Source of the DNA: Nitrospira sp.
GTDB lineage: Bacteria > Nitrospirota > Nitrospiria > Nitrospirales > Nitrospiraceae
Length of the DNA stretch: 33,396 nt
Assembly (NCBI GenBank): GCA_005116945.1
Contig: SWDH01000040.1
Coordinates: forward strand, 121,505 to 154,900
Reading direction: 5' to 3'
The notes under the pieces are model-generated. The model did not search any database. It had not been told where the DNA came from and was given only the letters and a program-made list of their open reading frames with translations. The first letter of the stretch is position 1. Each line of letters begins with the position of its first letter. Both the position numbers and the translations under genes were made by a program. Of the stretch, positions 2,327 to 25,180 are shown piece after piece.

Positions 2327-2330
2327 CGCA

Positions 2331-7121: not shown

Positions 7122-7125
7122 GCCA

Positions 7126-8202
7126 TCACCGAAGCTTTAATGTGCTCAAACTCAACAGCGCCAACAGGATGGCGATGATCCACAAACGCACCACGACCTT
7201 GGGTTCCTCCCACCCTTTCATCTCAAAATGATGATGGATGGGCGCCATGAGAAAAATGCGTTTCCCTCGCGACTTGAACGAGATCACTTGAAAAATGACC
7301 GAGACCGCCTCAATGACAAATACTCCGCCGACCATCAGGAGCAGCAACTCATGCTTACTGATCACCGCGACCGTGCCCAGCGCCGCTCCCAGCGGAAGCG
7401 AGCCCACATCCCCCATGAACACGGATGCCGGGTAGGTGTTGAACCACAAGAATCCCAAGCTCGCCCCCAGAATAGCGGCGGTGAACACGGCAAGCTCACC
7501 TGCGCCTTCGATGTGCGGAATAAGCAGATAGTCCGACATCAGCCGATGGCCGGTGACATAGGCCACAATCGTGTAGGCCATCGCCGCGATCATGACGGGT
7601 CCGATCGCGAGCCCATCGAGACCATCAGTCAGATTGACGGCGTTGGAACTCCCGACAATCACGATCACCGCAAAGGCAACATAGAACCAGCCGAGATCGG
7701 GAACGATATTCTTAAAGAACGGAATGCTGAGCTTGGTCGTATAGCCCGGCAGAAAATAGAGAACCAATGCGATTGCCAAGGCCACCGCCAATTGCGCCGT
7801 GAATTTCTGTCCCGCCGATAACCCCTTCGATTGGGCCTTGATGAACTTGAGATAGTCGTCGACAAATCCAATTGCGCCGAACCCCAGCATGGCAAGAAGC
7901 GCAAGCCAAACATAGGGTCTCGCAATATCGGCCCAGAGAAGCGTCGAGAGGACGACCGCGAAAAGGATGAGCATCCCGCCCATGGTAGGCGTGCCGCTCT
8001 TCGCCAGGTGACTTTTGGGGCCGTCACCGCGAATCTGCTGGCCCAGCTTAATCTCTTGCAACTTCTTGATCACCCAGGGAGCCAGCACAAAGGCGATCAG
8101 AAACGCCGTCACCGCCCCGTAGATGATCCGAAAGCTCAGATACCGAAAGACGTTCAGAAACGAATATTCGGTATGAAACGGATACAGCCAGTTGTAGAGC
8201 AT
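7126..8202 (-). CDS. mraY: Phospho-N-acetylmuramoyl-pentapeptide transferase MraY
   Basis: MraY moves phospho-MurNAc-pentapeptide from UDP to undecaprenyl phosphate, forming lipid I in the inner membrane. I place the start at ATG 8202, giving 358 residues beginning [13 protein letters not shown], the usual MraY N-terminus. A start at 8241 would add 13 untypical residues. AAGG lies about 12 bases upstream. Motifs include TPTMGG near residue 75, the catalytic aspartate cluster in GFVDDYLK and [23 protein letters not shown], and the MAPIHHHFE loop near the C-terminus. About ten membrane segments are visible. The gene follows murF after a 64-base spacer, the largest gap in the operon, in which I saw no clear terminator. 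Confidence 0.96.
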
Positions 8203-8266
8203 GCGGCCTTTACCTTCACGATGAGCCGATCGTCCCACCAACTCTTGAGCTGATGGCGACAGCCCC

Positions 8267-9721
8267 TTACGATGCCTGCCTGATGACCGCCCTCATCCCT
8301 GCCAACGTTTGCACGACCTGTTCCATTTTCATACCGCGAGAAGCCTTGACCAACACGACGTCACCCTGCCGCAGAATCTTCTTAAGATGATCCGCAGCCG
8401 CCGCCGCGTCGCTCACCTCATCGATCTGCACACCCGCCATCCCACCTTGGCGAGCTCCTTCCGCAATCTCTCGGCCCAACGCCCCGCAGACGATCAGCCG
8501 AGACAGCCCCTGTGTGGCAAGAAACTGCCCAACCTCCCGATGCAGGCGACCGGTCTCAGCGCCAAGTTCGAGCATGTCTCCCAGCACGGCAATCCGATCA
8601 CGTGCAGGGCGCCACTGTGCCAGCAGTTCAAGCGCCGCGTTCATCGACGCCGGGTTGGCGTTATAACAGTCGTTGATGAAATGGACGCCGTGAAGAGTCA
8701 CCACCTGCGACCGCATCGCGGCAGGACGGAATCGACTCAACCCTTGGGCAATCATCACACCGGAAAGATTCAAGGCCATACCCACCGCAGCGGCGGCGAG
8801 CGCATTGGTGACATTGTGGGTCCCATGCACCTTCATTCGCACGATCGTGGGACGGATTTTTCCAGGGAGGTGCAAGCGAAAGGTCGTGCCCTGTCGAGCA
8901 TCGGACGTGACCTGACTTGCGCGAACATCGGCCATCGCTGAATGTCCGAACGACACCACGCGACATTGCGCGCGCGACGCAAGGTAGTCAAAATATGGAT
9001 CGTCGGCATTCAGCATGGCCATGCCATCTGGAGGAAGCAGATCCAACAATTCCGCCTTCGCCTGCGCGGACCCTTCCATGCTGCCAAAGAACTCGAGGTG
9101 ATCGGGTCCAATATTGGTAATCACTCCGATTGTGGGCCTGACAATCTCACAGAGTCTGGTCGTCTGCCCCTGTTGATCCACCCCCATCTCAATCACGGCT
9201 GCCTGATGGCGAGCCGTGAGCCGAAACAGGGTCGCGGGTACACCGATTCGATTGTTGAAATTTCCTTCGGTCTTCAGCATCGACCACCGTTGAGCCAATA
9301 CCGCCGCCACCATCTCCTTCGTCGTTGTCTTGCCGTTGCTCCCAGTCACTGCCACCATCGGAATCGTGAATCGACTGCGATAGTGCGTCGCGAGCTGCTG
9401 GTAGGCAAAGAGCGGATCGCGCACGCCAAAGAGAAACGGGATAGATTGCCTCGCGATCCGGCGTACCACTGAGAGACTTGAAGGAAGGTGGTATCCGTCA
9501 TGGACGATGGCTCCCGCCGCGCCCTGTGCGAACACAGCCGGTACAAAATCATGACCATCAAATCGATCGCCTCTGAGCGCAACAAAGAGATCGCCTCGAC
9601 GAATCGACCGTGAGTCCGTGCTGATCTGCCTGATCCGGCGCTTCCCCGATAGCGAGGCCTGCCCCGCAAGCACTTTCACGCTGATCACTTCTCGTAACTC
9701 ATCGACCGTAAACAACCCCAT
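8267..9721 (-). CDS. murF: UDP-N-acetylmuramoyl-tripeptide--D-alanyl-D-alanine ligase MurF
   Basis: MurF adds the D-Ala-D-Ala made by Ddl to UDP-MurNAc-tripeptide with ATP. I chose ATG 9721, giving 484 residues beginning MGLFTVDELREV, because it matches the family N-terminus and has GGAAGGTG about 8 bases upstream. A GTG at 9766 that overlaps the murE stop (GTGA) would add 15 residues and cannot be excluded. Features are STDSRSIRRGDLFVAL in the UDP-binding domain, the P-loop GSNGKTTT (127-134), the central-domain motif NIGPDHLEFF, HNVTNALAAAA, and NDCYNANPASM in the C-terminal domain. Length is normal. Confidence 0.95.
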   Translation of the reverse strand: MGLFTVDELREVISVKVLAGQASLSGKRRIRQISTDSRSIRRGDLFVALRGDRFDGHDFVPAVFAQGAAGAIVHDGYHLPSSLSVVRRIARQSIPFLFGVRDPLFAYQQLATHYRSRFTIPMVAVTGSNGKTTTKEMVAAVLAQRWSMLKTEGNFNNRIGVPATLFRLTARHQAAVIEMGVDQQGQTTRLCEIVRPTIGVITNIGPDHLEFFGSMEGSAQAKAELLDLLPPDGMAMLNADDPYFDYLASRAQCRVVSFGHSAMADVRASQVTSDARQGTTFRLHLPGKIRPTIVRMKVHGTHNVTNALAAAAVGMALNLSGVMIAQGLSRFRPAAMRSQVVTLHGVHFINDCYNANPASMNAALELLAQWRPARDRIAVLGDMLELGAETGRLHREVGQFLATQGLSRLIVCGALGREIAEGARQGGMAGVQIDEVSDAAAAADHLKKILRQGDVVLVKASRGMKMEQVVQTLAGMRAVIRQAS

Positions 9722-9762
9722 TGATTTTTCACCTTCCACGGCCCCGGCCATCGCCTGAATAC

Positions 9763-11280
9763 TCACGCGCAGTCTCGCAATTGCTGAATCGCCTCGCGTG
9801 CTACTTCACGGTCGTCAAAATGAAACTTTTGAGTGCCGATGATTTGATAATCTTCATGCCCCTTCCCCGCGATCAGCACCATATCGCCGTGGTGCGCCTC
9901 CCGGATGGCGGCACCGATCGCCTCTCGGCGATCCGGCATCAAGTGATATTGCACGTGTTGCCGCCGCATGAGCGCATCGCGCACGCCGATCTCAACTTCA
10001 TGAAGGATCGCCAGCGGGTCCTCAGTTCGAGGATTATCGGAAGTCAAGATCACCACGTCGCTATATTCAACAGCAGCGCGGCCCATCTTGGGCCGCTTTC
10101 CTCGGTCCCGGTCACCACCACAGCCAAACACGGTAATAATCCGATCGGTCTTTAATACGTGGGCTGCCGTGAGTAACCTGAGAAGCGCGTCTTCCGTATG
10201 GGCATAATCGACAACAACAGTAAAGTCTTGCCCGGACGAGATCCGCTCGAAGCGGCCGGGAACATTGTCGATATGGGCAGTCGCTTCACGGATCTGATCG
10301 GCTGTCGCCCCGTCGTGAAGCGCCACTCCGATTGCTCCCAGCAAGTTATAGACGTTGTGCTCTCCGACTAACCGGCTCTCGACGGGAAACGATCCCGATG
10401 GAGTGGCCGCCGTGAACGTGGTTCCGGTAAGCGAAAGACGCACGCGCTCTGCTTTGAGGTCTGCCCGGTTCTGAATGGCATACCCCCAGACCGGCACAGG
10501 ACAGGCAGTCCGAATCGAGTTCCCTCTGGGGTCGTCCAAATTGACGATGGCGCGCTTCCCGACCTTTTGTCCTCCTGCCAATCCGGTAAAGAGTCGCAGC
10601 TTTGCCTCAAAATACTCGTCCATGGTGCGATGAAAATCCAAGTGGTCTTGCGTCAGGTTTGTGAAAACGGCCGCGTCATACTCGCAGCCCGCTGTCCGGT
10701 CCAACGCGAGGGCATGAGACGATACTTCCATCACGGTGGCGGTGAGCTTCCTCTCGAGCATCTTCGCTAACAGTGCCTGGAGATCAAGTGCCCCGGGCGT
10801 TGTGTGAGAAGCAGGAAGTGTTTCTTGTCCGATCTGATATCCCACCGTGCCAATCAACCCTACCCGCCGACCGATCCCTTCTAGTAAGGCCTTGCAAAGA
10901 TACGTCGTCGTCGTCTTCCCATTTGTCCCCGTCACGCCTATCATTTTGAGATGGACGGATGGGTCACGATAAAACCGGCTACCGAGAAAACCGAGCGCCT
11001 TGCGTGAATCGTTCACCCGCACAAACGGCAATGACCCTGACGACAGTGGCGCCTGTACGACTACCGCAACTGCTCCCGCCTTGATGGCCCGCTCTGCAAA
11101 TTCGTGCCCGTCAACGCGCTCACCCTTCACAGCAACAAAAAGACTCCCACCCGTCACGGCCCGAGAATCATCCGTGATCCCAGTGATCGGACGACTCATA
11201 TCGCCACGCTGCTCCAGGATATCGACGTTCCCCCAGAGCGCTGCAAGCAACCGTGAAAGGGGAACGGGGTCATGCGTCAT
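9763..11280 (-). CDS. murE: UDP-N-acetylmuramoyl-L-alanyl-D-glutamate--2,6-diaminopimelate ligase MurE
   Basis: MurE adds the third amino acid of the peptidoglycan stem peptide with ATP. The 505 residues carry the P-loop GTNGKTTTT (118-126), SSHALALDR, NLTQDHLDFH with the conserved lysine region after it, and in the C-terminal domain GCGGDRDRGKRP and DNPRTEDP (415-422). The DNPR tetrad is the established signature of enzymes specific for meso-diaminopimelate rather than lysine, so the wall is likely of the DAP type. The ATG at 11280 is 6 bases after the ftsI stop. Length is normal. Confidence 0.96.
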   Translation of the reverse strand: MTHDPVPLSRLLAALWGNVDILEQRGDMSRPITGITDDSRAVTGGSLFVAVKGERVDGHEFAERAIKAGAVAVVVQAPLSSGSLPFVRVNDSRKALGFLGSRFYRDPSVHLKMIGVTGTNGKTTTTYLCKALLEGIGRRVGLIGTVGYQIGQETLPASHTTPGALDLQALLAKMLERKLTATVMEVSSHALALDRTAGCEYDAAVFTNLTQDHLDFHRTMDEYFEAKLRLFTGLAGGQKVGKRAIVNLDDPRGNSIRTACPVPVWGYAIQNRADLKAERVRLSLTGTTFTAATPSGSFPVESRLVGEHNVYNLLGAIGVALHDGATADQIREATAHIDNVPGRFERISSGQDFTVVVDYAHTEDALLRLLTAAHVLKTDRIITVFGCGGDRDRGKRPKMGRAAVEYSDVVILTSDNPRTEDPLAILHEVEIGVRDALMRRQHVQYHLMPDRREAIGAAIREAHHGDMVLIAGKGHEDYQIIGTQKFHFDDREVAREAIQQLRDCA

Positions 11281-11286
11281 GGCCTT

Positions 11287-13005
11287 TTAGTGATCCTTCA
11301 TCGCCAAGGCGATTTTGACGGTATCTTCTCTGGACACGCCAAGATACATAAGCGCCTGCTCCCCGACTCGCCGAAATACGGGCGCCGCCACGACTCCACC
11401 CCATGATTCACCTTGAGGTTCATCGAGGACGACGATCATCGCCAGCCGTGGAGATTCTGCCGGAACATATCCAACAAACGACCCGACAAACTGCGTCGAG
11501 GAATAGGCGCCGGTTCGTGAGTCGACTTTTTGAGCGGTCCCGGTTTTACCCGCCACACGGAATCCAGGAATGGCCGCTTTCGTCCCAGTCCCGTTCGTCA
11601 CGACACCTTCCAGCATCGTCGTCATCGCTCGAGCCGTCTCCGGCGACACGACTCGTCGCTTTACTTGTGGGACCACTTCTTTAAGAACGCGACCTGTCTG
11701 ATCGCGTACTTCGGATACCACATACGGCTTCATCATCACGCCTCCATTGGCGAGAGTCGCAACCGCCGACACCATCTGGAGTGGCGTCACCCCGACTTCC
11801 TGACCCATCGAAATCGATGCGAGCGATCGCCGCCCCCACTCTTTGGGCGCCTTCAAAATCCCACTCACTTCTCCCGGCAGATCAATCTCAGTCCGGTGGC
11901 CAAATCCGAACGCTTGGAGATACCGATAGAGTCGCTGGTCTCCGAGCGCCATCCCGGTTTTGGCGGCACCGATGTTGCTCGATTTTTGAATCACCTCAGA
12001 GAATGTCATCCAGCCAAGCTTGTCATGGTCATGAATCGTCGTATTCGCGACTACCATCTGGCCATGTTCACCGAAGACCATAGAACCGGGCGTCATCACG
12101 TGTTCTTCAAGCGCCGCGGCCGCGACCATCGCTTTCATCGTTGACCCTGGCTCGTACGTATCCGTCAGTGCACGATTGCGCCACCGATCAGGCGTCAACG
12201 CAGTCACAACGTTTGGGTCGAATCGTGGGCTGACAGCCATCGCGAGAATCGCACCGGTTTGAGGTTCCATGACAATGATCGTCCCGGACTTGGCACGTGA
12301 TTGGGTGACGGCCTCTTCAAGCTCTTTTTCCGCAATGTATTGAATCACCTCGTCGACGGTCAGGGTGAGTGCATGTCCCGGTGTCGGCGTTTGCTCCGCC
12401 ACATCCTTAGGAAACACCGTACGGTTTAACGCATCTCGCTGCAGCACGGTGACACGCTTTTCTCCATGCAGATGCGAATCGTAGAGGCGCTCAAGACCCT
12501 CAAGCCCTTGCCCATCCATCCCTGAAAACCCTAGGACATGAGCCAACAAGGGGCCCTTAGGGTAAAACCGCCTTCCCTCCATCACCACGCCGATGCCGTC
12601 CAACGACAACTGTTTCAACCGGCGGCCTTGCTCGGGCTCAACCTTTCGCGCCAACCACACAAAGTTTTTGTCTTGCCGAAGCTTTTTCTCGAGCTCCTCT
12701 CTTCGAATGTGGAGCACTGGGGAAAGATGCCGAGCAACGGTCGAAGGGCTCTCAATTGACGTCGGTTCGCCGAATACCGATGGAACCTCCACATTCATCG
12801 CAAGGACTTTGCCGTGGCGATCCGATACCATGCCTCTAGCCCCTTCGAACGACACGGTCTTTTGATGTTGCCGATCAGCCTTGGCCGAGAGCTCTGCGGC
12901 TTGGAGCACTTGGAGCGTAACCAGCCGAAAGAGAACGATACAGAACCCGCACAGGAGCAGGAGCAGCATCACATAACGACGACCGCGCGAAGGTCCGGCA
13001 GTCAC
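11287..13005 (-). CDS. ftsI: Division transpeptidase (penicillin-binding protein 3) FtsI
   Basis: FtsI is the class B PBP that cross-links septal peptidoglycan together with FtsW. The 572-residue protein has one membrane segment (about residues 11-30), a dimerisation/pedestal domain, and a transpeptidase domain with all three catalytic motifs: S288-TMK (in YEPGSTMK), SSN at 342-344 and KTGT at 487-490. The start is GTG 13005, which overlaps the ftsL stop (GTGA); this overlap favours it over any internal ATG. No C-terminal PASTA domain is present. The sporulation-type SpoVD is an alternative name in some annotations, but the length and setting fit FtsI. Confidence 0.95.
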   Translation of the reverse strand: MTAGPSRGRRYVMLLLLLCGFCIVLFRLVTLQVLQAAELSAKADRQHQKTVSFEGARGMVSDRHGKVLAMNVEVPSVFGEPTSIESPSTVARHLSPVLHIRREELEKKLRQDKNFVWLARKVEPEQGRRLKQLSLDGIGVVMEGRRFYPKGPLLAHVLGFSGMDGQGLEGLERLYDSHLHGEKRVTVLQRDALNRTVFPKDVAEQTPTPGHALTLTVDEVIQYIAEKELEEAVTQSRAKSGTIIVMEPQTGAILAMAVSPRFDPNVVTALTPDRWRNRALTDTYEPGSTMKAMVAAAALEEHVMTPGSMVFGEHGQMVVANTTIHDHDKLGWMTFSEVIQKSSNIGAAKTGMALGDQRLYRYLQAFGFGHRTEIDLPGEVSGILKAPKEWGRRSLASISMGQEVGVTPLQMVSAVATLANGGVMMKPYVVSEVRDQTGRVLKEVVPQVKRRVVSPETARAMTTMLEGVVTNGTGTKAAIPGFRVAGKTGTAQKVDSRTGAYSSTQFVGSFVGYVPAESPRLAMIVVLDEPQGESWGGVVAAPVFRRVGEQALMYLGVSREDTVKIALAMKDH

Positions 13006-13337
13006 TGGCGAATCCTCCCGATCGAATCATGTCTCGCCACACGGATAAGCTCCACGGGCGGGGGCGTCAGGCTCGGAATCTCTCCCGGCATATGCACCAT
13101 CAGCACTTGCCCTTGCTGGGGTGGAACAAGCCCCAGTTTTTCAGTCGCCACCTTCGCAATCCGCTCCGGGGCCGCCAACGCAGAAACCTTCACTCGCAAT
13201 TGATCCCTCTCTCGCTCCAGCAAGATTTTCTGCGTCTTCAATCGTTCTATCTGATAACCCAATCGAACGACATCCACACGTTCCCATACAAATATGAAGA
13301 CCAACAACACCCCGGCCACTATCGTTAACGCCTTCAT
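13002..13337 (-). CDS. ftsL: Cell division protein FtsL
   Basis: FtsL is a small bitopic protein that links FtsQ/FtsB to FtsW/FtsI. The 111-residue product has a short cytoplasmic N-terminus, a membrane segment at about residues 3-18 (LTIVAGVLLVFIFVW), then a charged heptad-like helix at about 25-55 and the ATEKLGLVPPQQGQV motif typical of FtsL/DivIC proteins. The primary sequence is weakly conserved in this family, so position between rsmH and ftsI is an important part of the call. The start overlaps the rsmH stop (ATGA) and is preceded by a strong AAGGAGGA ribosome-binding site. Confidence 0.88.
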   Translation of the reverse strand: MKALTIVAGVLLVFIFVWERVDVVRLGYQIERLKTQKILLERERDQLRVKVSALAAPERIAKVATEKLGLVPPQQGQVLMVHMPGEIPSLTPPPVELIRVARHDSIGRIRQ

Positions 13338-14251
13338 AAACAGTCCTCCTTGGATACCCGTTGAGCAGCTCGCAACTTGGCACTGCGGGATCGAGGATTC
13401 CGGCCCGATTCTTCTCTGCTGGGAACCTGCGGCTTCTTGGTGAGAACCAATAATTTAGGATCGTCTGTGCTGGAAAGCGTCCGTAGCGTGTGCTTCACAA
13501 TTCGATCTTCGAGCGAATGGAAAGAAATGACGCAGAGGCGGCCGCCGGGAGACAGGACATCCACGGCGTCACGCAACGCTGGTTCGAGACAGTCGAGTTC
13601 ATGATTCACGGCAATACGAAGGGCTTGAAACGTGCGGGTGGCACAGTGGAGGCGACCATGCCGATAATTCGCCGGAACAGCCCCTTCAATCACTGAGACA
13701 AGCTCTTTCGTCGTCGTGAATGGATACCGTTGACGCGCACGGACAATGGCACTCGCAATTCGTCGAGAAAACCGTTCTTCCCCGAACTGAAAAATGGTAT
13801 CGGCCAACTGCGCTTCCGGCCAACGATTGACCAGCTCAGCGGCGGTCCCACTCATTGACTGATCCATACGCATGTCCAACGGACCGTCCCCTTGAAAGCT
13901 AAAGCCCCGAGCAGGTTCCTCCAACTGCGGGGACGAGACCCCAAGATCAAACAGAATTCCATCAACCTGGCTAATGCCACTCAAAGTAAGATGCTGTTTC
14001 AGATCCACGAAATGACCATGAAAAAGAAGAACGCGATCACCAAACCGTGCGAGCTTTTCTCGACTGGCCGCAATTGCCATCTCATCACGGTCAATTCCTA
14101 TAAGCCTGCTATTGGAACCACTTGCCTCAAGAATTTTCTCAGCATGCCCACTATACCCCACCGTACAATCAAGATAGGTTCGACCACCATCACGAACAAG
14201 CAATAAAACCACCTCTTCTGGCATAACTGGAATATGTCGCGATACCTCCAT
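13334..14251 (-). CDS. rsmH: 16S rRNA (cytosine-N4)-methyltransferase RsmH
   Basis: RsmH (MraW) uses S-adenosylmethionine to N4-methylate a cytosine in the P-site region of 16S rRNA (C1402 in E. coli). The 305 residues begin MEVSRHIPVMPEEV and show the SAM-binding DCTVGYSGHAEKIL (28-41), the signature FDLGVSSPQLEEPARGFS, the DMRMDQ motif, and the C-terminal VISFHSLEDRIVK. It is the first gene of the dcw operon here, with the promoter about 50 bases upstream. In most genomes mraZ comes directly before rsmH; it is not present. The start codon has only a weak ribosome-binding site (GGTAAAG). Confidence 0.96.
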   Translation of the reverse strand: MEVSRHIPVMPEEVVLLLVRDGGRTYLDCTVGYSGHAEKILEASGSNSRLIGIDRDEMAIAASREKLARFGDRVLLFHGHFVDLKQHLTLSGISQVDGILFDLGVSSPQLEEPARGFSFQGDGPLDMRMDQSMSGTAAELVNRWPEAQLADTIFQFGEERFSRRIASAIVRARQRYPFTTTKELVSVIEGAVPANYRHGRLHCATRTFQALRIAVNHELDCLEPALRDAVDVLSPGGRLCVISFHSLEDRIVKHTLRTLSSTDDPKLLVLTKKPQVPSREESGRNPRSRSAKLRAAQRVSKEDCL

Positions 14252-14273
14252 TAATTATTCTTTACCAGAGCTC

Positions 14274-14288
14274 CCCACTTTTTCCCAC
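14274..14288 (-). promoter_or_regulatory. Two GTGGG direct repeats, MraZ-operator type
   Basis: On the minus strand GTGGG occurs at 14288-14284 and again at 14278-14274, separated by five bases, so the repeats are 10 bases apart. Known MraZ operators upstream of dcw operons are direct repeats of TGGGN separated by 5 nt. They sit just downstream of the predicted transcription start. A third GTGGG (14310-14306) lies in the promoter spacer but out of the 10-base phase. The role is inferred from pattern and position. Confidence 0.55.
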
Positions 14289-14297
14289 TAAAATAGA

Positions 14298-14325
14298 AGT
14301 ATACACCCACTCAAAGACTTGTCAA
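14298..14325 (-). promoter_or_regulatory. Sigma-70-type promoter of the dcw operon
   Basis: On the minus strand TTGACA (14325-14320) and TATACT (14303-14298) are separated by 16 bases. The -35 is perfect and the -10 is one base from consensus. Transcription would start near 14291, about 40 bases before the rsmH start codon. It is the only strong promoter I saw for the dcw genes. Confidence 0.75.
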
Positions 14326-14766
14326 TAGAAAATTCATGTACTTACGAAGCGTGGAGGCTCTCGGTTTTATCTGAAACTTTAGTAAAAGAAAGAGCGGGCG
14401 ATGCGGGGATTAAGTGGGCACATGGGGATGAGGATATCTCGACTTTACTCTCTTCAATTCACACGGAGAGACTAGGTTCAGCATTGACTGAGGGTAATCG
14501 CCCCCCGGATGGTCAAAAAGTAGACCAAGCGACCACCCAACACTCACGGTTCACTCTCCTGAGAGATGGAGAGCGACACGACACCCCTTCTCGACCAACA
14601 TCATCGAGCCGTCGCATCAAGAAGGATCGCCATGTGGATATCTTTAATTTTAGATAGAAAGAGACAAACCCTTAGCGTAACTCCTGGATCGATCAGTCGA
14701 TGTGTCAGACACACGAAGTTGGCGAGTTTCATTGACAAGAATTCAAGTCGGGATGAAAATGGTTGT
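14326..14766. other. Intergenic stretch, divergent from rsmH
   Basis: No convincing gene lies here. Long frames run through it, including an N-terminal extension of the next gene, but their composition is not protein-like. Bases 14507-14531 (starting GGATGGTCAAAAAG) resemble the left end of the palindrome at 16867-16989 and may be a solo decayed end. A perfect TTGACA lies shortly before the next gene but no good -10 follows it. Confidence 0.4.
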
Positions 14767-15822
14767 ATGCGCTCGCTCACAACAACTACAGCCCTCTGCC
14801 TCATCTCCTTCATGGGGGGAACCGCTTTCACACTTGGCGGGATCACGGACAACACGGCGACAGCGGCATCGCCACTCTATTGGTGCCCGGATCGAAAAGC
14901 CGATCAACAATATTCTTCCACCACAGGGCCGGGATGTGTGTCGCTTGCTGAGAAGAAATCGCCTCAAACAGCAGAACAAGAAGAGGAACTATCCCTTAGC
15001 GACAAATCGCCACGTGATTTCAAGGTCGAGAATCTACAAGGTGACGTCTCGACATTCCTGAACAAGTATCGCCAATTTCTCGATTGCTGCAAGACCGACC
15101 TTTCGGAACTTCAGCAGGTCGAAGAAATGGGAGACGAGGTCGGGGATTTGCTCACGTCCACTCAGGCTAATCTCTCGAATCATTCAATAGCCTCGCGCGG
15201 TATCATGCTCCGCGAAATGATCCCGGCAGTCGCAAAGGCCCGCGCGGACCTGAAAAAACTGCACGCCACACTCGAACGCATCAACACCGCAACCAATGCC
15301 CGAGATGCAGGAGACGTCGAATCCTCCAGCCGGGAAACCCGCGCGATTCGTGAAATGGAAGAATCAATCGAGAGAGACATCCATGCACCGAAGCTGTCGA
15401 CAGGGCCAAAAACAGGCGCCAGCATCGGTACCGCACCTGCCGCAGGGCCCAGCATCGGCAAGACACCGAAGACCGGCGATGCGATCGGCGGCCGAGGCGT
15501 GACGGGCCAAGATGTTGGAGCCTCTTCACGGAGCAGCCACGACATTGGCTCATCCGGTCCGACCGGCTTTGCTATCGGAGGAACCGGTCGCGCCGGACCT
15601 TCGATTGGAGAATCGAGACTCAACAGCGAGGAGTCCTCATCGGTCGGCTCATCGCTGCAGCGTTCCACCGTAGAATCGAGCCTGTCCGATTCGACAGTGG
15701 GATCGAGTTTCGGCGGCTCGAGCGTGGGCTCAAGCCTCGGAGAGTCAGGCGTTGGCTCTTCGTTCGGATCATCTTCCGTCGGTTCAACCATGCAAGAACG
15801 CAGCATCGCCCCTCAGCGATAA
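14767..15822 (+). CDS. Secreted protein with a C-terminal 10-residue and 9-residue repeat domain, function unknown
   Basis: I do not recognise the family. I start the gene at ATG 14767 (351 residues, MRSLTTTTALCLISFMGG) because this gives a signal-peptide-like N-terminus; a frame open from 14566 adds 67 unconvincing residues. Residues about 70-185 are charged and helical, with a Cys-Cys pair (FLDCCKTDL). The C-terminal third is repetitive: seven exact-length decamers (residues 212-281), each ending in IG or VG, then after a short spacer six nonamers (292-345) of the form SVGSSxxxS. Serine and glycine dominate this part. The helical body plus repeat tail suggests an exported surface or envelope protein, but function is not known. 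It is followed by a convergent lipoprotein gene 6 bases away. A complementary-strand frame (15180-15806) is a shadow of the repeats. Confidence 0.7.
   Translation: MRSLTTTTALCLISFMGGTAFTLGGITDNTATAASPLYWCPDRKADQQYSSTTGPGCVSLAEKKSPQTAEQEEELSLSDKSPRDFKVENLQGDVSTFLNKYRQFLDCCKTDLSELQQVEEMGDEVGDLLTSTQANLSNHSIASRGIMLREMIPAVAKARADLKKLHATLERINTATNARDAGDVESSSRETRAIREMEESIERDIHAPKLSTGPKTGASIGTAPAAGPSIGKTPKTGDAIGGRGVTGQDVGASSRSSHDIGSSGPTGFAIGGTGRAGPSIGESRLNSEESSSVGSSLQRSTVESSLSDSTVGSSFGGSSVGSSLGESGVGSSFGSSSVGSTMQERSIAPQR
15400..15609 (+). repeat. Seven tandem 30-bp coding repeats (decamer units)
   Basis: The coding sequence here encodes seven consecutive 10-residue units such as TGPKTGASIG, TAPAAGPSIG, KTPKTGDAIG and GTGRAGPSIG. 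Spacing is exactly 30 bases throughout. Each unit ends in IG or VG, usually preceded by S, A or D. The variable positions differ widely, so the units are old rather than freshly amplified. Confidence 0.85.
15640..15801 (+). repeat. Six tandem 27-bp coding repeats (nonamer units)
   Basis: Six consecutive 9-residue units follow the decamers: SVGSSLQRS, TVESSLSDS, TVGSSFGGS, SVGSSLGES, GVGSSFGSS and SVGSTMQER. They are more alike than the decamers, so this block may have expanded more recently. The change of period from 10 to 9 residues inside one protein is unusual. Confidence 0.85.
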
Positions 15823-17694: not shown

Positions 17695-17791
17695 GGGATG
17701 GGGGCTGATTGATCTTCTATTGCGCGCGTCCAACGAGGGCCTTCGGAGGCCGCGCGTTGCGCGAGCACAGAAGATCATCAGGCTCCATCCC
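17695..17791. repeat. 97-bp palindrome (family A, copy 1)
   Basis: The left arm GGGATGGGGGCTGATTGATC pairs with the right arm ending GGCTCCATCCC. Inside, CAACG pairs with CGTTG and GGCCT pairs with AGGCC around a TCGG loop. The element ends 8 bases from the cstA stop codon, so it could also end cstA transcription. The 21 bases before it (from CAAGCTTGCTC) are shared with the copy at 24331. Confidence 0.85.
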
Positions 17792-17799
17792 CTCCCCCA

Positions 17800-19818
17800 T
17801 CAACAGCACCCCCCGCCGGGCAGCTGCAATCGCTTCTCCTCATCATCATGCCGAATGGTCGTCTGCATTCTTCCCGGCGAACTTCCTCCTGCCATCACGA
17901 CCACTTCGCTGCTGGTGAATGGCCGCTTCAAGACCACATAGCCATACCACTGCCTGATACTATCGCCCAAGACGATCACCGCGAGCAAGGCCACCAATGC
18001 CACCAGCCCTGCATCCAGATACAAGGCAAAGGCCTGCCCGCTATCGGTGAGGGACGAAGCCTTACTCACGAACATACCGAACATCTCATAGGACCCCATC
18101 AAGGTAACGGTCCCGACAAACAACATCGGCAACGCGGTGATCCACAGAAATTGGGCCTTCCGCATCTTGATCAGCACTGTCGTCCCGATACAGAGCGCCA
18201 ACGTGCCGAGCAACTGATTCGCCGCGCCGAACATCGGCCAGAGGGTCGAGATGCTGCCGGTGCCGATAAGATAGCCCCAGGCCCCCACGATCAGTCCGCT
18301 GCTCACCGCCACGCCAGGCCACCAATTCATCCGCCGCAACGGAGCGTAAAAGCGCCCACCCATTTCCTGGATGAGATAGCGCCCCACGCGCGTGCCCGTA
18401 TCGATCGTCGTCAAAATAAACAAGGCCTCGAACACCAACGCAAACTGATACCAATAGGCCATCAACCCGGCCATACCAGGGAGCGCGGAAAAAATGGACG
18501 CCATGCCGACCGCCAGCGACACAGCCCCGCCAGGCCGACCTGCCACCTCCACCTCGACGAGTTGCGAGAGTTCCTGAATTCGCGAGACAGGAAAGCCCAT
18601 CGCAGCCAGCGCGTCGGGCGAGAGCATGGTGTTGATCGCCAGATAGTCACCGGGGATCAACACCGAGGCCGCAATCAACGCCATCACGCCGACAAAACTT
18701 TCCAGCAACATCGCTCCATAGCCAACCGTAGCCTGGGACTCCTGCTCGATCATCTTCGGCGTGGTCCCTGAAGAGACCAGCGAGTGAAAACCGGATATGG
18801 CTCCGCAGGCAATCGTGATAAAGAGAAAGGGAAAGAGCGTGCCGGGAATAATCGGTCCGCCGCCACTTGCGAATATCGTCACGCGCGGCATTTCGATCGT
18901 CGGGGCCATGAGGACCACGCCCACCCCCAGCAAGGCCACCACCCCAAGCTTCATAAAGGTCGAGAGATATCCTCGCGGCACCAGCAACATCCATCCCGGC
19001 AACACAGAAGCCAAAAACCCATAGCCGGCCAGCCCCCAGACCAACGTCGTGCGCTCCAACTCAAACCACCCTGCAATCGAAGACTGCGCGACCACCCGCC
19101 CGAAGATCACAGCCGCAACCAACAGCACCACACCGAGCAGGGAGACTTCCGCCACCCGGCCAGGCCGGAACTTCTGTAGATAGAAGCCCATGAACAGACC
19201 AATAGGAATCGTCATCGCAATCGTGAAGGTACCCCAAGCATTGCGATAGAGCGCGTTCACAACGGCAAAGCCCAGCCCAGCCAGCGCCACAATCACAATG
19301 AACAGCACCGCCACCGCCGTTGCCGTGCCGGTGACCATACCCAGTTCGTCTCGCGCAATTTCAGGAAGCGAGCGGCCATTGCGACGCATCGAGGCCACGA
19401 GAATGATGAAGTCCTGCACCGCCCCCGCCAGCACCGCGCCGATCACCAGCCAAAGAAAACCAGGCAAGAACCCGAACTGCGCCGCCAACACCGGCCCCAG
19501 CAACGGCCCAGCCCCGGCAATCGCCGCGAAGTGATGGCCGAACAACACGTACTTATTCGTGGGATGAAAATTGACGCCGTCGTTCAACCGCACAGCCGGC
19601 GTCACCCGCTGATCGTTCAGATCAACAACCCGCCGAGAAATCCAACGGCCATAGAAACGAAAGGCAAGCACGTAGATACAAGCCGCCGCGACGACCAGCC
19701 AAAGACCGTTTACTTTCTCGTGAGGATTAACGAGGCCGGTGACAAAAGCGAAGGCAACGGCACCGAGAATCGCAAGAAAAGCCCATAAGACCAGCTTTAC
19801 TGCGGACATGCCGGGCAT
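17800..19818 (-). CDS. cstA: CstA-family transporter (peptide/pyruvate)
   Basis: CstA proteins are multi-pass inner-membrane transporters linked to carbon starvation, with peptides or pyruvate as reported substrates. The 672-residue protein begins MPGMSAVKLVLWAFLAILG; ATG 19809 (three residues later) has a better-placed TAGGA and is an equally good start. Family motifs include FYGRWISRRV, TPAVRLNDGVNFHPT, YVLFGHHFAAIAGAGPLLGPV, GAVQDFIIL, ACGAISGFHSLVSSGTTPK and PMFGAANQLLG. About sixteen membrane segments are visible. The C-terminal 40 residues are hydrophilic and end LPGGGCC. A truncated relative of its 5' end lies at 20414-20611. Confidence 0.93.
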   Translation of the reverse strand: MPGMSAVKLVLWAFLAILGAVAFAFVTGLVNPHEKVNGLWLVVAAACIYVLAFRFYGRWISRRVVDLNDQRVTPAVRLNDGVNFHPTNKYVLFGHHFAAIAGAGPLLGPVLAAQFGFLPGFLWLVIGAVLAGAVQDFIILVASMRRNGRSLPEIARDELGMVTGTATAVAVLFIVIVALAGLGFAVVNALYRNAWGTFTIAMTIPIGLFMGFYLQKFRPGRVAEVSLLGVVLLVAAVIFGRVVAQSSIAGWFELERTTLVWGLAGYGFLASVLPGWMLLVPRGYLSTFMKLGVVALLGVGVVLMAPTIEMPRVTIFASGGGPIIPGTLFPFLFITIACGAISGFHSLVSSGTTPKMIEQESQATVGYGAMLLESFVGVMALIAASVLIPGDYLAINTMLSPDALAAMGFPVSRIQELSQLVEVEVAGRPGGAVSLAVGMASIFSALPGMAGLMAYWYQFALVFEALFILTTIDTGTRVGRYLIQEMGGRFYAPLRRMNWWPGVAVSSGLIVGAWGYLIGTGSISTLWPMFGAANQLLGTLALCIGTTVLIKMRKAQFLWITALPMLFVGTVTLMGSYEMFGMFVSKASSLTDSGQAFALYLDAGLVALVALLAVIVLGDSIRQWYGYVVLKRPFTSSEVVVMAGGSSPGRMQTTIRHDDEEKRLQLPGGGCC

Positions 19819-19838
19819 CCTAACAACCCACTGTGTGC

Positions 19839-19867
19839 TTGTAAATCAATCCTAGCCTCGCTATCCT
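19839..19867 (+). promoter_or_regulatory. Predicted promoter of the DUF433/DUF5615 pair
   Basis: TTGTAA (19839-19844) and TATCCT (19862-19867) are 17 bases apart. The -10 ends only 8 bases before the ATG at 19876, so the message would be leaderless or nearly so, in line with the absence of a ribosome-binding site. Confidence 0.45.
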
Positions 19868-19875
19868 TGTGAACC

Positions 19876-20097
19876 ATGGCTACTGCTAAAGCACCTCTCA
19901 TCAGCTCTTCCCCCGACGTGCTCGGCGGCACACCAGTCTTCGTGGGAACACGCGTGCCAATTCAGACCTTGATCGAATATTTGGAAGGTGGCGAAACAAT
20001 CGACGACTTCCTTCAAGGCTTCCCGACCGTCTCGCGCGAGCAAGTGATCGCCTTCCTCGAAGAAGCGAAGACCCGGATGCTCGCCAAAGCCTCGTGA
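19876..20097 (+). CDS. DUF433 family antitoxin
   Basis: The 73-residue protein fits DUF433: SSPDVLGGTPVFVGTRVPIQTLIEYLEGG (10-38) followed by TIDDFLQGFPTVSREQVIAFL. Such proteins have a DNA-binding winged-helix/homeodomain-like fold and act as the antitoxin partner of DUF5615 PIN-like proteins (VapB45/VapC45-type pairs). The downstream gene is the DUF5615 partner and overlaps this stop by 4 bases (GTGA). The antitoxin frame is intact while the toxin frame is broken. There is no ribosome-binding site. Confidence 0.85.
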   Translation: MATAKAPLISSSPDVLGGTPVFVGTRVPIQTLIEYLEGGETIDDFLQGFPTVSREQVIAFLEEAKTRMLAKAS

Positions 20098-20413
20098 GAG
20101 TTCTCCTCGACGAGTGCATGACCAACGATTCGCCAAAGATATTCAAGGGCATGAAGTCCTGACGGTTCCTCAAGCAGGCTGGGCGGGGATCAAGAACGGT
20201 GAGCTACTGACACGCGCACAAACACAATTCGATGTTTTCGTGACCGTCGACCGTAATCTAGCCTTTCAACAGAACATCCCGCAGTTCACCATCGCTGTCA
20301 TCCTGCTGCAGGCCCAGACCAACCGACTGAAAGATCTTCTCCCACTGCTACCGAAACTGCTTCAGATTCTGACAACAGCCCCAAAGGGCGAAGTCACCCA
20401 TGTGAACCCGTAG
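20094..20413 (+). pseudogene. DUF5615 PIN-like toxin, frameshifted
   Basis: Translation from GTG 20094 gives the DUF5615 N-terminus RVLLDECM and then leaves the family and stops after 22 codons. The rest of the protein continues in another frame from about 20117: QRFAKDIQGHEVLTVPQAGW, then GIKNGELL, FDVFVTVDRNLAFQQN and IAVILLQAQTNRLKDL, to a stop at 20413. One lost base (or two gained) near 20117-20123 explains this. With the frame restored the protein would be about 106 residues, normal for the family, with the PIN-type acidic residues D (in LLDE) and D (in FVTVDRN) present. Loss of toxin with a kept antitoxin is a common end state; a sequencing error is the alternative. Confidence 0.8.
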
Positions 20414-20611
20414 TCACCTCTTCCAGTCCCCGGCCAGCATCCATAAGAAGCGAAAGGCCAACACATAAATACAAGCCGCTGCCACGACCAGCCAGAGACC
20501 GTTTACTTTTTCTTGTGGGTTGACGAGACCGACAACAAAGGCGAGCGCAACAGAGCCAAGAACGGCGAGAAATCCCCAAAGAGCCAGCTTTAACGCCGAC
20601 ATGCGTGGCAT
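20414..20611 (-). pseudogene. Fragment of a second cstA, 5' end only
   Basis: The 65-residue frame MPRMSALKLALWGFLAVLG, then VNPQEKVNGLWLVVAAACIY and VLAFRF, aligns with the first 55 residues of the cstA product at 19818. After VLAFRF it loses the match through an apparent one-base insertion and ends after 10 more codons. The two copies differ at many bases, so this is an old duplicate or a relic of a paralogue, not a recent copy. Even the upstream TAGGATGCC is shared. It lies immediately after the broken toxin gene on the other strand. Confidence 0.85.
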
Positions 20612-20637
20612 CCTAGCACAAAAGGAGGCGAGAGCGA

Positions 20638-20716
20638 CCAGGCTGCCCTTCGTGCTCGCGGAACGCGCGGCCTAGGAAGGCCCTCGTTCGACGCGCGCAG
20701 TCAAGGGCATACCTGG
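20638..20716. repeat. 79-bp palindrome (family A, copy 2)
   Basis: The outer arm CCAGGCTGCCCTT pairs with AAGGGCATACCTGG. Inside, GAACG pairs with CGTTC and GGCCT (20669-20673) pairs with AGGCC (20678-20682) around a four-base loop. The outer arms differ in sequence from copy 1 yet still pair. It lies just left of the ParB/methyltransferase module. Confidence 0.85.
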
Positions 20717-20823
20717 GTCACTCCCGCCAAGAAAAGACAAGAAGCGATCCTAGGATTGCCACTTTTGAGTCAAGCCAAATCTACGGTACGCCTGGGCTAT
20801 ACTTTTTTCTCCCGAAACTCACA

Positions 20824-20852
20824 TTGACACTATTTCCCACTCACAGTAGCCT
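20824..20852 (+). promoter_or_regulatory. Possible promoter of the ParB-like/methyltransferase operon
   Basis: A perfect TTGACA (20824-20829) is followed after 17 bases by TAGCCT (20847-20852), a weak -10. A TATACT at about 20811 is an alternative -10 but lacks a good -35. The start codon at 20897 has GGAGGG six bases upstream. No other gene lies between this site and the start. Confidence 0.35.
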
Positions 20853-20896
20853 GTGCCAGCCTTACGCCATCCAGCCTATCATTTGGAGGGAGTACT

Positions 20897-22252
20897 ATGG
20901 GCGCTATCGATTGCTCTATTGACCACCTCCTGCTTGATTCTGAAAACCCTCGGAACAAGAACACTGCCAATCAAAGGGACGCGCTCCAAAAAGTTCTCGA
21001 CGATCAGGAAGAGAAGCTCTTTGTACTCGCAGAAGACATAGTCGAAGCAGGCTTGAGCCCAATGGACCGCATGTTGGTTCTTCGTGAGAATAATGATTCC
21101 AAAAGGTTCATGGTGCTAGAGGGCAACCGCCGAGTTGCTGCCTTAAAAATTCTTTCAAATCCGAGTGTATTGACGAGTCTCCATATAAAGCCATCACTCC
21201 AAAAACGATTCGAGGCTTTAAGCAGGAGATTCGTCCGAGAAGAAATCGAACCCATTGCTTGCTTTGAGGTAACAGACCGTGAAGAAGGCAATCGATGGAT
21301 CTTGCTCAGACATACGGGTGAGAACGAAGGCCGTGGAGTAGTCGGATGGTCTGGACTCGCAGCCGCTCGCTTCAGAGGAGGAGATCCGGCATTGCAGGCT
21401 CTTGAGTTTGTACGAAATTATGGGAACCTTTCGGACAACCAAAAACATCTTCTAATACATTCATTCCCTATTACGACACTCGAGCGGTTGCTTTCGACAC
21501 GCGAAGTCAGAAAGTTGATTGGAGTGGAAATACTCGATAAGAAGTTATCCACGGAACTCCCCGCTGACGAGGCCATTAAACCGCTAAAACGAATGGTACT
21601 GGATCTGGTTGAAAAGAAATTCAATGTCAGTAAACTCAAAAATAAAGCCGCACAGACTGAATACATTCAAAACTTCGAAAGCGCTGACAGACCGGATTTT
21701 TCGAAGAAAGGTGTGTCGATCCCGATCGAGAATATTCGGGAAGGCGACTTCAAACAGAAACCAGGCAAAGCACGCCAGACCAAGCGAAGGGCCACAGACC
21801 CTTCTGATCGGAAAACAGTAATTCCTGCAAGATTAAGACTGAATATACAGGATCCGAAGGTAGCAGCGATCTTTAAGGAGCTTAAGGGACTTCGAGCTGA
21901 GGAGTTTCGAAACGCCTGTGCCGTCCTTTTCCGCGTTTTTCTGGAACTTTCAGTTGATGCATACATGGAAACCAACCAGATGCACCGTAAATTCAAAGAC
22001 AGGGGTGGCCAATTCCGCGATAAAACCCTACAAACCAAAGTCGAAGAGGTTATAAATCATTTAGTGGAGAAGAAGGATTGTGACAGGAAAGGCTTCAGGA
22101 GTGTTTCTAGAGGTCTTAGCGTCCCTAGCAGCCCTTTCAGCATCGAACTACTTCATGATTATGTACACAACCGTTTCGTAACTCCCCAGCCACAATCTCT
22201 GATTGAGGCATGGAATGATGCCCAACCATTTTTCGAACAGGTATGGGCATGA
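20897..22252 (+). CDS. ParB/Srx-like domain protein paired with a DNA methyltransferase
   Basis: Residues 5-110 look like a ParB N-terminal (ParB/Srx) nucleotide-binding domain: LAEDIVEAGLSP near 44-55 and EGNRRVAALKI (75-85), matching the GxRRxxA motif. The middle has a conserved-looking LRHTGENEGRGVVGW (137-151). From about 335 a helical C-terminal domain begins (FRNACAVLFRVFLELSVDAYM) and ends with LHDYVHNRF (419-427), reminiscent of HEPN-like domains, though no clear R-x4-6-H RNase motif is present. The stop overlaps the methyltransferase start (ATGA), so the two are co-translated. Codon use is more A/T-rich than in neighbouring genes, which suggests transfer. A defence or modification role is inferred from the pairing only. 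ATG 20897 has GGAGGG six bases before it. Confidence 0.8.
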   Translation: MGAIDCSIDHLLLDSENPRNKNTANQRDALQKVLDDQEEKLFVLAEDIVEAGLSPMDRMLVLRENNDSKRFMVLEGNRRVAALKILSNPSVLTSLHIKPSLQKRFEALSRRFVREEIEPIACFEVTDREEGNRWILLRHTGENEGRGVVGWSGLAAARFRGGDPALQALEFVRNYGNLSDNQKHLLIHSFPITTLERLLSTREVRKLIGVEILDKKLSTELPADEAIKPLKRMVLDLVEKKFNVSKLKNKAAQTEYIQNFESADRPDFSKKGVSIPIENIREGDFKQKPGKARQTKRRATDPSDRKTVIPARLRLNIQDPKVAAIFKELKGLRAEEFRNACAVLFRVFLELSVDAYMETNQMHRKFKDRGGQFRDKTLQTKVEEVINHLVEKKDCDRKGFRSVSRGLSVPSSPFSIELLHDYVHNRFVTPQPQSLIEAWNDAQPFFEQVWA

Positions 22253-23157
22253 GTCGTTCACAAACCACCGACCTCCCGCCACCTAATCGGCTCATTCATT
22301 ACACCCCACTTCGTTATCCTGGAGGGAAAGCAAAGCTTGCTGGTTTTACCAAAAAAGTAATCGAGGATAACGGTCTCAATGACGGGACTTATGTCGAACC
22401 CTATGCTGGTGGAGCAGCAATCGCACTGGAACTACTCTTTCATGAGTATGTTTCTGAAATCTACATCAACGACATTAGCCGACCTATCTACGCATTCTGG
22501 AAAAGTACGCTCGATCACACAGAGGAACTTCTTCGATTCATCCGTGACACCCCCCTTACTGTCCGAGCATGGGATAAACAGAAGAAAACCCTAACCCACC
22601 AAGCCGACCACGATGATCTTTCGCTTGGCTTCGCCATGTTTTTTCTCAACCGAACAAACCGATCAGGCATTCTGAATGGAGGAATCATAGGAGGCCGCGA
22701 CCAGACAGGTCCTTGGAAGATCGACGCACGTTACAATAAACACGAACTCAGCTTTCGAATTGAATCAATCGCAAAACTCCGAAGAAGAATCCATCTCTCA
22801 CAAATGGATGCCCTGACCTTCCTATGCTTGAATAGAGGTAAATGGCCTGATAGCACCTTGATATACCTCGACCCACCTTACTATCGGAAAGGTAAAGACC
22901 TCTATCTTGACTACTATTCTCATGGGGACCATGAAGAAGTAGCTAGCACCATCACTAAGAAAATCCGTCGGCAGAAGTGGATGGTGTCATATGACGATGC
23001 GAAACCGATCCGCCAAATATATTCACGCTATCGCCAACTCACATACAAGATTGGCTATAGCGCAAGAGAAGCCCGCGCAGGACAAGAAGTAATGTTCTTC
23101 TGTGACCACCTCAAAATTCCTCCGCTAAGCGGGGCAATGCGAGCCATTAAGAAGTAA
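22249..23157 (+). CDS. D12-class (Dam-like) DNA adenine N6-methyltransferase
   Basis: The 302-residue protein is an alpha-class adenine methyltransferase. It has the N-terminal LRYPGGKAKL (21-30), the SAM-binding EPYAGGAAIAL (50-60) in place of FxGxG, the FFLNRTNRSGILNGG segment, and the catalytic DPPY at 208-211 (YLDPPYYRKG). Its target sequence is not readable from the motifs; Dam relatives often modify GATC. No restriction endonuclease gene is nearby, and the partner is the ParB-like protein. I start at ATG 22249 (4-base overlap with the upstream stop); ATG 22243 would add two residues. Composition matches its partner rather than the flanking genes. Confidence 0.92.
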   Translation: MSRSQTTDLPPPNRLIHYTPLRYPGGKAKLAGFTKKVIEDNGLNDGTYVEPYAGGAAIALELLFHEYVSEIYINDISRPIYAFWKSTLDHTEELLRFIRDTPLTVRAWDKQKKTLTHQADHDDLSLGFAMFFLNRTNRSGILNGGIIGGRDQTGPWKIDARYNKHELSFRIESIAKLRRRIHLSQMDALTFLCLNRGKWPDSTLIYLDPPYYRKGKDLYLDYYSHGDHEEVASTITKKIRRQKWMVSYDDAKPIRQIYSRYRQLTYKIGYSAREARAGQEVMFFCDHLKIPPLSGAMRAIKK

Positions 23158-23331
23158 CACCGTAACAGGGAGTGAGGGGCGCCAGGAACAATTTCCTGAG
23201 TTGTGTGTGCGACCACCCTGAATTGCCACCGATCGCCTACCGATGAGAGCCAGACGGAACAAGCCTAGTCCAATCCAAACCAGCTAACGAACCGCCGGAA
23301 CGAAGCTCTGTTGCGTTGCTACACCTCCCTC

Positions 23332-23429
23332 AGGGGAGTCGCCGGACGGTCCTTCACTGCGCGCGTCGAACGAGCACATTCTGATCGTGCGCGTTCCGCG
23401 AGCAAGAAGGATGGTCTGGTGGCTCCCCT
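23332..23429. repeat. 98-bp palindrome (family A, copy 3)
   Basis: Outer arms AGGGGAGTCGCCGGAC and, read on the other strand, AGGGGAGCCACCAGAC pair over most of their length. Inside, GAACG pairs with CGTTC and GCAC with GTGC. The central stem has a sequence different from copies 1 and 2 but is again self-complementary. It lies right of the ParB/methyltransferase module. Confidence 0.85.
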
Positions 23430-23532
23430 CTCCACGGCTCTGCAAATCCAAAACGGGCCTAGAGCTACCATCTCTTCCGCTCCTTGCGATGACAATTCAG
23501 ATCGCCGGCCCATTTTTAGACTCTCCACGCCG

Positions 23533-23563
23533 TTGAACTTTCTTTCCGCTTCCGTCATATAGA
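23533..23563 (+). promoter_or_regulatory. Possible promoter of the GST-like gene
   Basis: TTGAAC (23533-23538) precedes CATATA (17-base spacing) or TATAGA (19-base spacing, 23558-23563). The -10 is only a few bases before ATG 23568, so the transcript would be close to leaderless. No ribosome-binding site is visible. Confidence 0.3.
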
Positions 23564-23567
23564 CTCC

Positions 23568-24224
23568 ATGCTCACGCTCATTCAGTTTCCCTGGTCGCCG
23601 TTCTGTATTACCGTGCGGCATATCCTTGAACGGAACGGCATCCCGTTTCGGCTGCGCAACATCCCCTATCATGAGCGGGCCTCTATTATTAAAGCCACGA
23701 ACGGACGTGGCCACACGGTGCCCTGTGTGGTCGACGGGAAGCAGGCCATCTGCGATGTGACTGACTTTGGTCAAGAGGTTTCGCGGTATATCGATCGGCG
23801 CTATACGCTCAACCTGTTCCCGAAAGAGTTCGAGGGCATTCAGCTCATTCTCTCTCGCTACATTGAGAATGACTTGGAGATGGTGGAGTTCAAGATCAAC
23901 GACAGCTATAGCATTCCGTCACGACCTCTGGTCGAACGCGTCATGCTGATCCGACACAAGGAACGGAAGTTCGGGAAGGGCTGTCTCCAGGAATGGACAA
24001 GTCATCGCACATACCTGTGCGCGCAATTTGCGGAGCTACTGACGCCGATCGACAATATGCTGGCTGAGTCGCCGTTCTTGATTTCGGATCGACCGATGTT
24101 CGTCGACTACGATCTCTACGGTGTGATCGCGAACTATCTGTTCAGCGGCAAAACGAAGCTCCCAAACCTCAAGCACCTTCGGCGTTGGCACCGCGCAATG
24201 GCACGCCCTTCCCAGAAAAATTGA
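23568..24224 (+). CDS. Glutathione S-transferase-like protein
   Basis: The 218-residue protein has an N-terminal thioredoxin-fold half, MLTLIQFPWSPFCITVRHIL, with SPFC (10-13) at the site where glutaredoxins have CPYC, and the cis-proline motif HTVPCVVDG near 49-57. The second half is a helical GST-type domain ending in a tryptophan-rich helix (LRRWHRAM). It likely binds glutathione or a similar thiol, but the substrate is unknown, and serine in place of the first cysteine argues for transferase rather than disulfide chemistry. It stands alone between repeats. ATG 23568 lacks a ribosome-binding site. Confidence 0.75.
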   Translation: MLTLIQFPWSPFCITVRHILERNGIPFRLRNIPYHERASIIKATNGRGHTVPCVVDGKQAICDVTDFGQEVSRYIDRRYTLNLFPKEFEGIQLILSRYIENDLEMVEFKINDSYSIPSRPLVERVMLIRHKERKFGKGCLQEWTSHRTYLCAQFAELLTPIDNMLAESPFLISDRPMFVDYDLYGVIANYLFSGKTKLPNLKHLRRWHRAMARPSQKN

Positions 24225-24547
24225 ATCTCTCAGGCTGATACTGCGCGATCCAGATCCCGGCGAAAAGCCTTCCTCTGCGCGCATCGAACGATATGAATAC
24301 CCCCCCCCAAGCTTGCTCGTTCTCTCTCCAAGGATGGTGGCTGATTGATCTTCTACTGCGCGCGTCCAACGAGGGGAGTCCGCGACCGCGCGTTGCGCGA
24401 GCACAGAAGATTATCAGGCTCCATCCCCTCCTCTGTTCTGCGGGTAAGAAGGACACCTGGCCGCTTACTCTCTATCCTTACAGGAGCCGCGAGAAGGTCC
24501 AGTCCGATCCGTACCAACTCCAAGAACTGCCGTCACAAATTGATTGT
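24225..24547. other. Intergenic region with one family A palindrome
   Basis: No gene is supported. It holds a run of ten C residues near 24299-24308, the 21-base flank beginning CAAGCTTGCTC that is also found before 17695, and the palindrome at 24331-24427. Frames running through it are shadows of the repeat. Confidence 0.5.
24331..24427. repeat. 97-bp palindrome (family A, copy 4)
   Basis: This copy shares its outer arms (AGGATGGTGGCTGATTGATC and the complement ending CCATCCC) and its 21-base left flank with copy 1. CAACG pairs with CGTTG, but the innermost stem is degraded. It is the closest relative of copy 1, about 6.6 kb away. Confidence 0.85.
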
Positions 24548-25065: not shown

Positions 25066-25080
25066 GTCTCCCCTTCTGAG

Positions 25081-25120
25081 CGTGCGCGCTCCGCGAGCAG
25101 GAGGACGACCAGGCCGCCCC
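25081..25120 (+). repeat. Right half of a family A palindrome (copy 7)
   Basis: CGTGCGCGCTCCGCGAGCAG followed by GAGGACGACCAGGCCGCCCC resembles the right half of copy 3 (23386-23428). The left half is missing. Confidence 0.65.
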
Positions 25121-25180
25121 CTCTCCCCCTCTATTGGGGAATACCTTCCAACCTCCAGACTCCGTACACTCTGCTCCTCA

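Follow-up and report, generated by a model that had tools for sequence, protein, structure and literature searches.

A Nitrospira gene pair that very probably represents the anti-phage system PD-λ-5, in a chromosomal slot between cstA and a glutathione S-transferase gene

The locus described here raises the question of whether two overlapping genes, encoding a ParB/Srx-type protein (gene A) and an adenine methyltransferase (gene B), form an anti-phage defence module in Nitrospira and, if so, of what kind. The window, by which we mean the whole stretch of 33,396 nucleotides that was analysed (G000:C35:121505-154900, G000 being its genome), has a chromosomal setting, since the nearest named relative found is Nitrospira sp. 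WB-IL-20 and a mur/fts cell-wall cluster lies upstream. Both genes are open frames on the same strand which share an ATGA overlap (22249-22252); the 4 bases reported by the initial annotation follow from its choice of the 22249 start for gene B, and an alternative ATG at 22243 would give an overlap of 10 bases. The A/T-richer composition that it described is borne out, with a GC content of 46.8% (0.468) in the pair against about 55% on both sides (0.554-0.556). Coordinates of all features are collected in Table 1.

Table 1. Features of the pair and its surroundings (window positions, or residues where stated), and contents of the cstA-GST slot by genome; 'PDC' and low-scoring slot matches are candidates only.
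Feature	Position or genome	Strand	Details
CstA (carbon starvation protein)	17800-19818	-	Pfam CstA E=1.2e-204; conserved synteny; left flank of slot
cstA 5' remnant	20447-20611	-	tblastn, CstA residues 1-55, 84%; cstA side of insertion slot
Dispersed repeat, left copy	20624-20706		inverted relative to right copy; 83 nt, 77% complementary
Gene A	20897-22252	+	451 aa; PD-Lambda-5_A; ParB/Srx-type N-terminal domain
Gene A, N-terminal domain	residues ~1-160		ParB/Srx-type; EGNRR 75-79, RHTGENEG 138-145, W151
Gene A, middle part	residues ~160-260		helical
Gene A, low-confidence stretch	residues 290-298		within the linker
Gene A, C-terminal domain	residues ~320-450		helical; R346, E350, H424
Gene B	22249-23157	+	302 aa; PD-Lambda-5_B; D12-class N6-adenine DNA methyltransferase
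Dispersed repeat, right copy	23351-23433		at least 44 matches among those listed for the genome
Glutathione S-transferase/glutaredoxin-like gene	23568-24224	+	Pfam GST_N_3 E=4.7e-8; conserved synteny; right flank of slot
Slot: PD-λ-5	G000, G291, G086		split over two contigs in G086
Slot: type II-A retron	G109		NDT effector + reverse transcriptase
Slot: OLD/Gabija-like AAA proteins	G102, G444, G235
Slot: DRT-type reverse transcriptase	G002
Slot: SIR2-like	G365
Slot: DndB	G258
Slot: HEC-08 + PDC-M30B	G196
Slot: PD-T7-5/PD-T7-1-like protein	G282
Slot: PDC-S01 + HNH	G190
Slot: PDC-M04A/DUF3800	G293
Slot: weaker defence matches	G199, G408
Slot nearly empty	G435, G295, G215, G315, G175, G248, G157

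The pairing had initially been taken to match no named system, which proved wrong: both proteins match PADLOC models of PD-Lambda-5 nearly from end to end. The product of gene A aligns with PDLC03998 (PD-Lambda-5_A) at E=3.5e-141, residues 5-450 covering positions 6-464 of the 466 in the model, and that of gene B aligns with PDLC04018 (PD-Lambda-5_B) at E=6.5e-117, residues 17-294 covering positions 4-279 of 291. None of the neighbours taken as a control (the open frame 14566-15822, a BNR protein, CstA, GST and a PilZ protein) matched a PADLOC defence model. Judging by these sequence matches, the pair is very probably a Nitrospira chromosomal copy of the known two-gene anti-phage system PD-λ-5, and the proposed role as a defence module gains support through this family membership.

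According to the main text of Vassallo et al. 2022, PD-λ-5 came from a functional selection in E. coli, where it gave broad phage protection in an assay host without the mrr region, and was called a compacted RM+Abi system by its discoverers; the term 'ParB' is absent from that main text (PMC9519451). The window pair shares with PD-λ-5 the two adjacent genes, both near end-to-end on the family models, as well as the combination of an adenine methylase with a protein without a classical endonuclease domain. On the other hand, it occupies a chromosomal slot between core genes of a Nitrospira-family genome, not a prophage, and it is divergent, the nearest relatives of A found outside Nitrospiraceae being 54% and 41% identical. 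The initial annotation had allowed that the genes might turn out to be members of a known restriction-modification system; this comes near the truth insofar as the defence system is known and was likened by its discoverers to RM+Abi. We found no published mechanism for PD-λ-5, which later papers, in their available text, give in surveys without one.

By its sequence, gene B is a D12-class N6-adenine DNA methyltransferase with intact motifs. It matches Pfam MethyltransfD12 (E=2.8e-18), its family profile picks out the adenine methyltransferase 7m6b among solved structures (E=3.5e-29), and its model has a mean pLDDT of 85.1. The DPPY site, correctly described as intact at the outset, lies at residues 208-211 and is invariant in 22/22 homologues, and EPYAGG (residues 50-55) is kept in nearly all of the same 22 sequences. 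Mrr restricts some m6A-modified DNA, so the mrr-less host in which PD-λ-5 was assayed fits with an active methylase. B thus resembles the DpnII/Dam-like methylases of type II restriction-modification in class, whereas its partner A is not a recognisable restriction endonuclease: no endonuclease model matched it in Pfam, PADLOC or NCBIfam, and neither an HNH/DUF1524 nuclease nor DUF262 was found in it with Pfam. This agrees with the earlier remark that the pair holds no endonuclease of a known type. A reading as classical restriction-modification was rejected, as no cognate restriction endonuclease was recognised in A.

Gene A itself has no Pfam or NCBIfam identity. Pfam ParB_N was not recognised in the window protein and appeared in 5/36 homologues (best E 0.0024), and a sequence-profile search against solved structures gave only a chance match, so that fold comparison was needed. 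The AlphaFold model, built with 36 sequences (mean pLDDT 92.3, pTM 0.59), was matched by Foldseek to CDP/CTP-bound ParB, Noc, KorB and sulfiredoxin with probabilities of up to 1.00 (best E 1.2e-3), the ParB-CDP structure 7bnk as well as 7bm8 reaching 1.00 (E 1.2e-3 to 1.1e-2). Whole-chain TM-scores against ParB are low (0.15-0.23), so only the resemblance of the N-terminal domain is secure, and the modelled domain arrangement either differs from that of ParB or is uncertain. The EGNRRVAAL motif noticed at the outset is present at residues 75-83, in a predicted ParB-type fold, and its EGNRR part is invariant in 36/36 aligned homologues, as are N17, R19, W151, R197 and H424; H139 and R346 are each kept in 34/36. 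Taken together, structure and conservation point to an N-terminal domain of ParB type and not of GmrSD type, and the initial description, in which a ParB/Srx-type protein is paired with an adenine methyltransferase, was correct.

The likeness to the CTP-dependent DNA clamps ParB, Noc and KorB comprises the N-terminal fold and a GxRR-type motif (EGNRR), and the Foldseek alignments reach into the following helical region. A is unlike these clamps in its second motif, which is ENxQR in ParB and RHxGExxGxGxxxW here, in its different C-terminal domain, and in that no ParA is seen near the pair. More broadly, the ParB/Srx-fold superfamily serves in DNA-modification defence, for example in DndB/DpdB and GmrSD (PMC12839542), and a 2025 survey of the ParB-CTPase fold describes CTP, ATP and GTP binders as well as methyltransferase fusions (PMC12704722). 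A belongs to the same superfamily as DndB, DpdB and GmrSD but has other partners and motifs, and no phosphorothioate, deazaguanine or HNH components are seen with the pair. The initial annotation had drawn an analogy with type IV restriction of the GmrSD/DUF262 kind. On a reading of this type, the ParB/Srx domain of A would sense modified phage DNA and cut it, with B as an accessory methylase. The fold is indeed common to the GmrSD N-terminal domain, and weak Pfam GmrSD_N matches occur in 2/36 homologues (best E 0.087; not in the window protein), but the analogy is weak: the GmrSD-type BrxU comes only at Foldseek rank 25 (probability 0.33), far below the ParB-CDP/CTP structures which are the nearest folds, and no HNH or other nuclease domain is recognised in A. 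To our knowledge, a constant methylase partner is also atypical of type IV systems, and we consider this reading highly improbable.

The C-terminal domain is helical in the predicted model, as was initially proposed; LHDYVHNRF is found at residues 419-427, however, and the protein does not end there but runs to residue 451. Pfam recognised nothing in this domain, and a search of a viral fold library with A returned ParB-like proteins along with a single truncated relative, from Vibrio phage ValB1MD-2, and nothing for the C-terminal part. The conservation of R346 and H424 suggests a conserved site in its sequence. One explanation within PD-λ-5 is that the domain is a HEPN-like ribonuclease toxin which is kept inactive through B or host methylation and is freed by infection, following an abortive toxin-antitoxin logic. 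This would fit a helical domain with an arginine and a histidine kept in 34/36 and 36/36 homologues, the single weak matches to DUF4145 and Csm6 HEPN among the 36 homologues, and the remote HEPN similarity that the main text of Vassallo et al. gives for 6/21 systems, unnamed there, alongside its RM+Abi description of PD-λ-5 (PMC9519451). Against it, the HEPN motif RX4-6H is absent from the C-terminal domain and hence from the vicinity of H424, its sole match in A lying at residue 133 in the N-terminal domain, and the identity of the C-terminal domain would depend on weak matches. We regard the toxin as possible but on the unlikely side.

The mechanism that we put forward, tentatively and as something short of an even prospect, is one of self-marking. 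B would methylate host DNA at the adenines of a specific site, and A would be a nucleotide-dependent, ParB-like DNA-binding sensor or effector which this methylation keeps in check. On phage DNA that is unmodified, or modified differently, A would engage its C-terminal helical domain and then block replication or stop the cell. The pair would in this way form a compact device, restriction-modification-like or abortive, that has no classical endonuclease. The ParB-type reading offers residues to mutate, namely EGNRR, H139, R346 and H424 in A and DPPY in B. For a broadly acting defence such as PD-λ-5, residues of interest can thus now be named both in the putative nucleotide-site motif of A and in its separate conserved C-terminal domain.

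The association of A with B extends well beyond Nitrospira. While a single-sequence query of viral contigs gave no match, an alignment-based query found 80 viral or prophage loci with an A homologue, and a B homologue is directly adjacent in about 70 of them, most often downstream in the same orientation, with a convergent arrangement in some cases; the pairing is therefore not due to chance. A few shorter A-like proteins in viral contigs lack an adjacent B. Homologous pairs were also found in plasmids of Kosakonia and Vibrio maritimus and in a Marinobacter phage, and a Vibrio phage relative had been annotated as PD-Lambda-5_A by its depositors. In the metagenome-assembled genome of an uncultured cyanobacterium, the stretch upstream of the PD-λ-5 pair (L005 269-2514) holds a second ParB-like gene (386 aa, with EGNRR) and a protein of 362 aa to which Pfam assigns no family. 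In Nitrospira sp. WB-IL-20, gene A is broken by a deletion of 10 bases (L004 ~6990-7010) and gene B is still open, so PD-λ-5 may decay, although the deletion could reflect misassembly, WB-IL-20 being a metagenome-assembled genome; the copy in the window is intact.

The ParB-type domain, together with the many homologues on viral contigs, could also be read as a prophage or plasmid partition or maintenance gene which, with an orphan methylase beside it, plays no part in defence here, and prophage partition had been named at the outset as a case that would speak against defence. We find this hardly credible: there is no ParA-like gene among the scanned neighbours, which are chromosomal housekeeping genes, the homologous E. 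coli system was selected for phage protection, and relatives carry other defence systems in the same slot.

While the system is of a kind already known, the slot that holds it (window 19819-23567) is less expected. Across 29 Nitrospiraceae loci from several genera (L127, L128, L133-L135 and L160-L183 being the counterparts), the cstA-GST gap ranges from 208 to 7050 bases with a median of 2290 and exceeds 1300 bases in 19, being less certain in G025, G007 and G320, where just a short piece of CstA is matched, at a stretch or contig edge. In contrast, the neighbouring gaps BNR-DUF520 (n=23) and DUF520-CstA (n=25), which as the two adjacent gaps are the only control intervals, never exceed 308 bases and hold no cargo. 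Based on this comparison and on what relatives carry in it (Table 1), the cstA-GST interval is probably a place where Nitrospiraceae exchange defence cargo. Two genomes of the same genus (G028 and G020) lack the pair with a CstA nucleotide identity to the window of 89.5% and 85.5%, and G291, at only 79.7%, has it (A 83% and B 82% identical), a pattern consistent with either exchange at this position or differential loss from it.

We found no earlier report of a Nitrospira hotspot at this position among the open-licence papers listed for such hotspots. The joint proposal that A is a ParB-type nucleotide-dependent clamp, whose loading or release would be gated by the adenine methylation of its partner, and that cstA-GST is a hotspot, so far unreported, at which Nitrospiraceae exchange defence genes is, as a whole, rather doubtful. 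If true, a methylation-gated ParB-type clamp would be a kind of self/non-self sensing of which we know no description. The slot is in any case a small and easily found place to seek new defence genes in Nitrospiraceae, as several occupants match no recognised family. Large open frames without a PADLOC match, which are candidates for unknown defence genes, occur in G025 (L160 1340-4498, 1052 aa), G320 (L177 502-2070, 522 aa) and G444 (L176 2851-4227, 458 aa).

The edges of the insertion carry traces of their own. Remnants of the 5' end of a second cstA copy lie not only beside the window pair but also in the slot of other genomes, G028 and G020 among them (L127 4643-4876, L128 3862-3990, L134 4240-4428), as if insertion had duplicated the end of cstA. 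The pair is further flanked by inverted copies of a repeat of about 50-100 bases, which were considered and rejected as transposon ends because this repeat is scattered across the genome; additional copies occur in the window at 17721-17773, 24350-24409 and 25074-25126, and others recur in the slot of relatives. No Rfam match was obtained between 20300 and 23700.

Elsewhere in the window, a second low-GC stretch (about 0.48-0.50) spans 13500-15000, and the open frame 14566-15822 (418 aa) in it gave no match in Pfam, NCBIfam or PADLOC. The cell-wall cluster at 373-14251 comprises ddl, murB, murC, a MurG-bearing open frame, murD, mraY, murF, murE, a PBP/FtsI-like gene and rsmH. The MurG-bearing frame encodes 813 aa, of which MurG forms the C-terminal half, and its N-terminal 440 residues are presumably FtsW.
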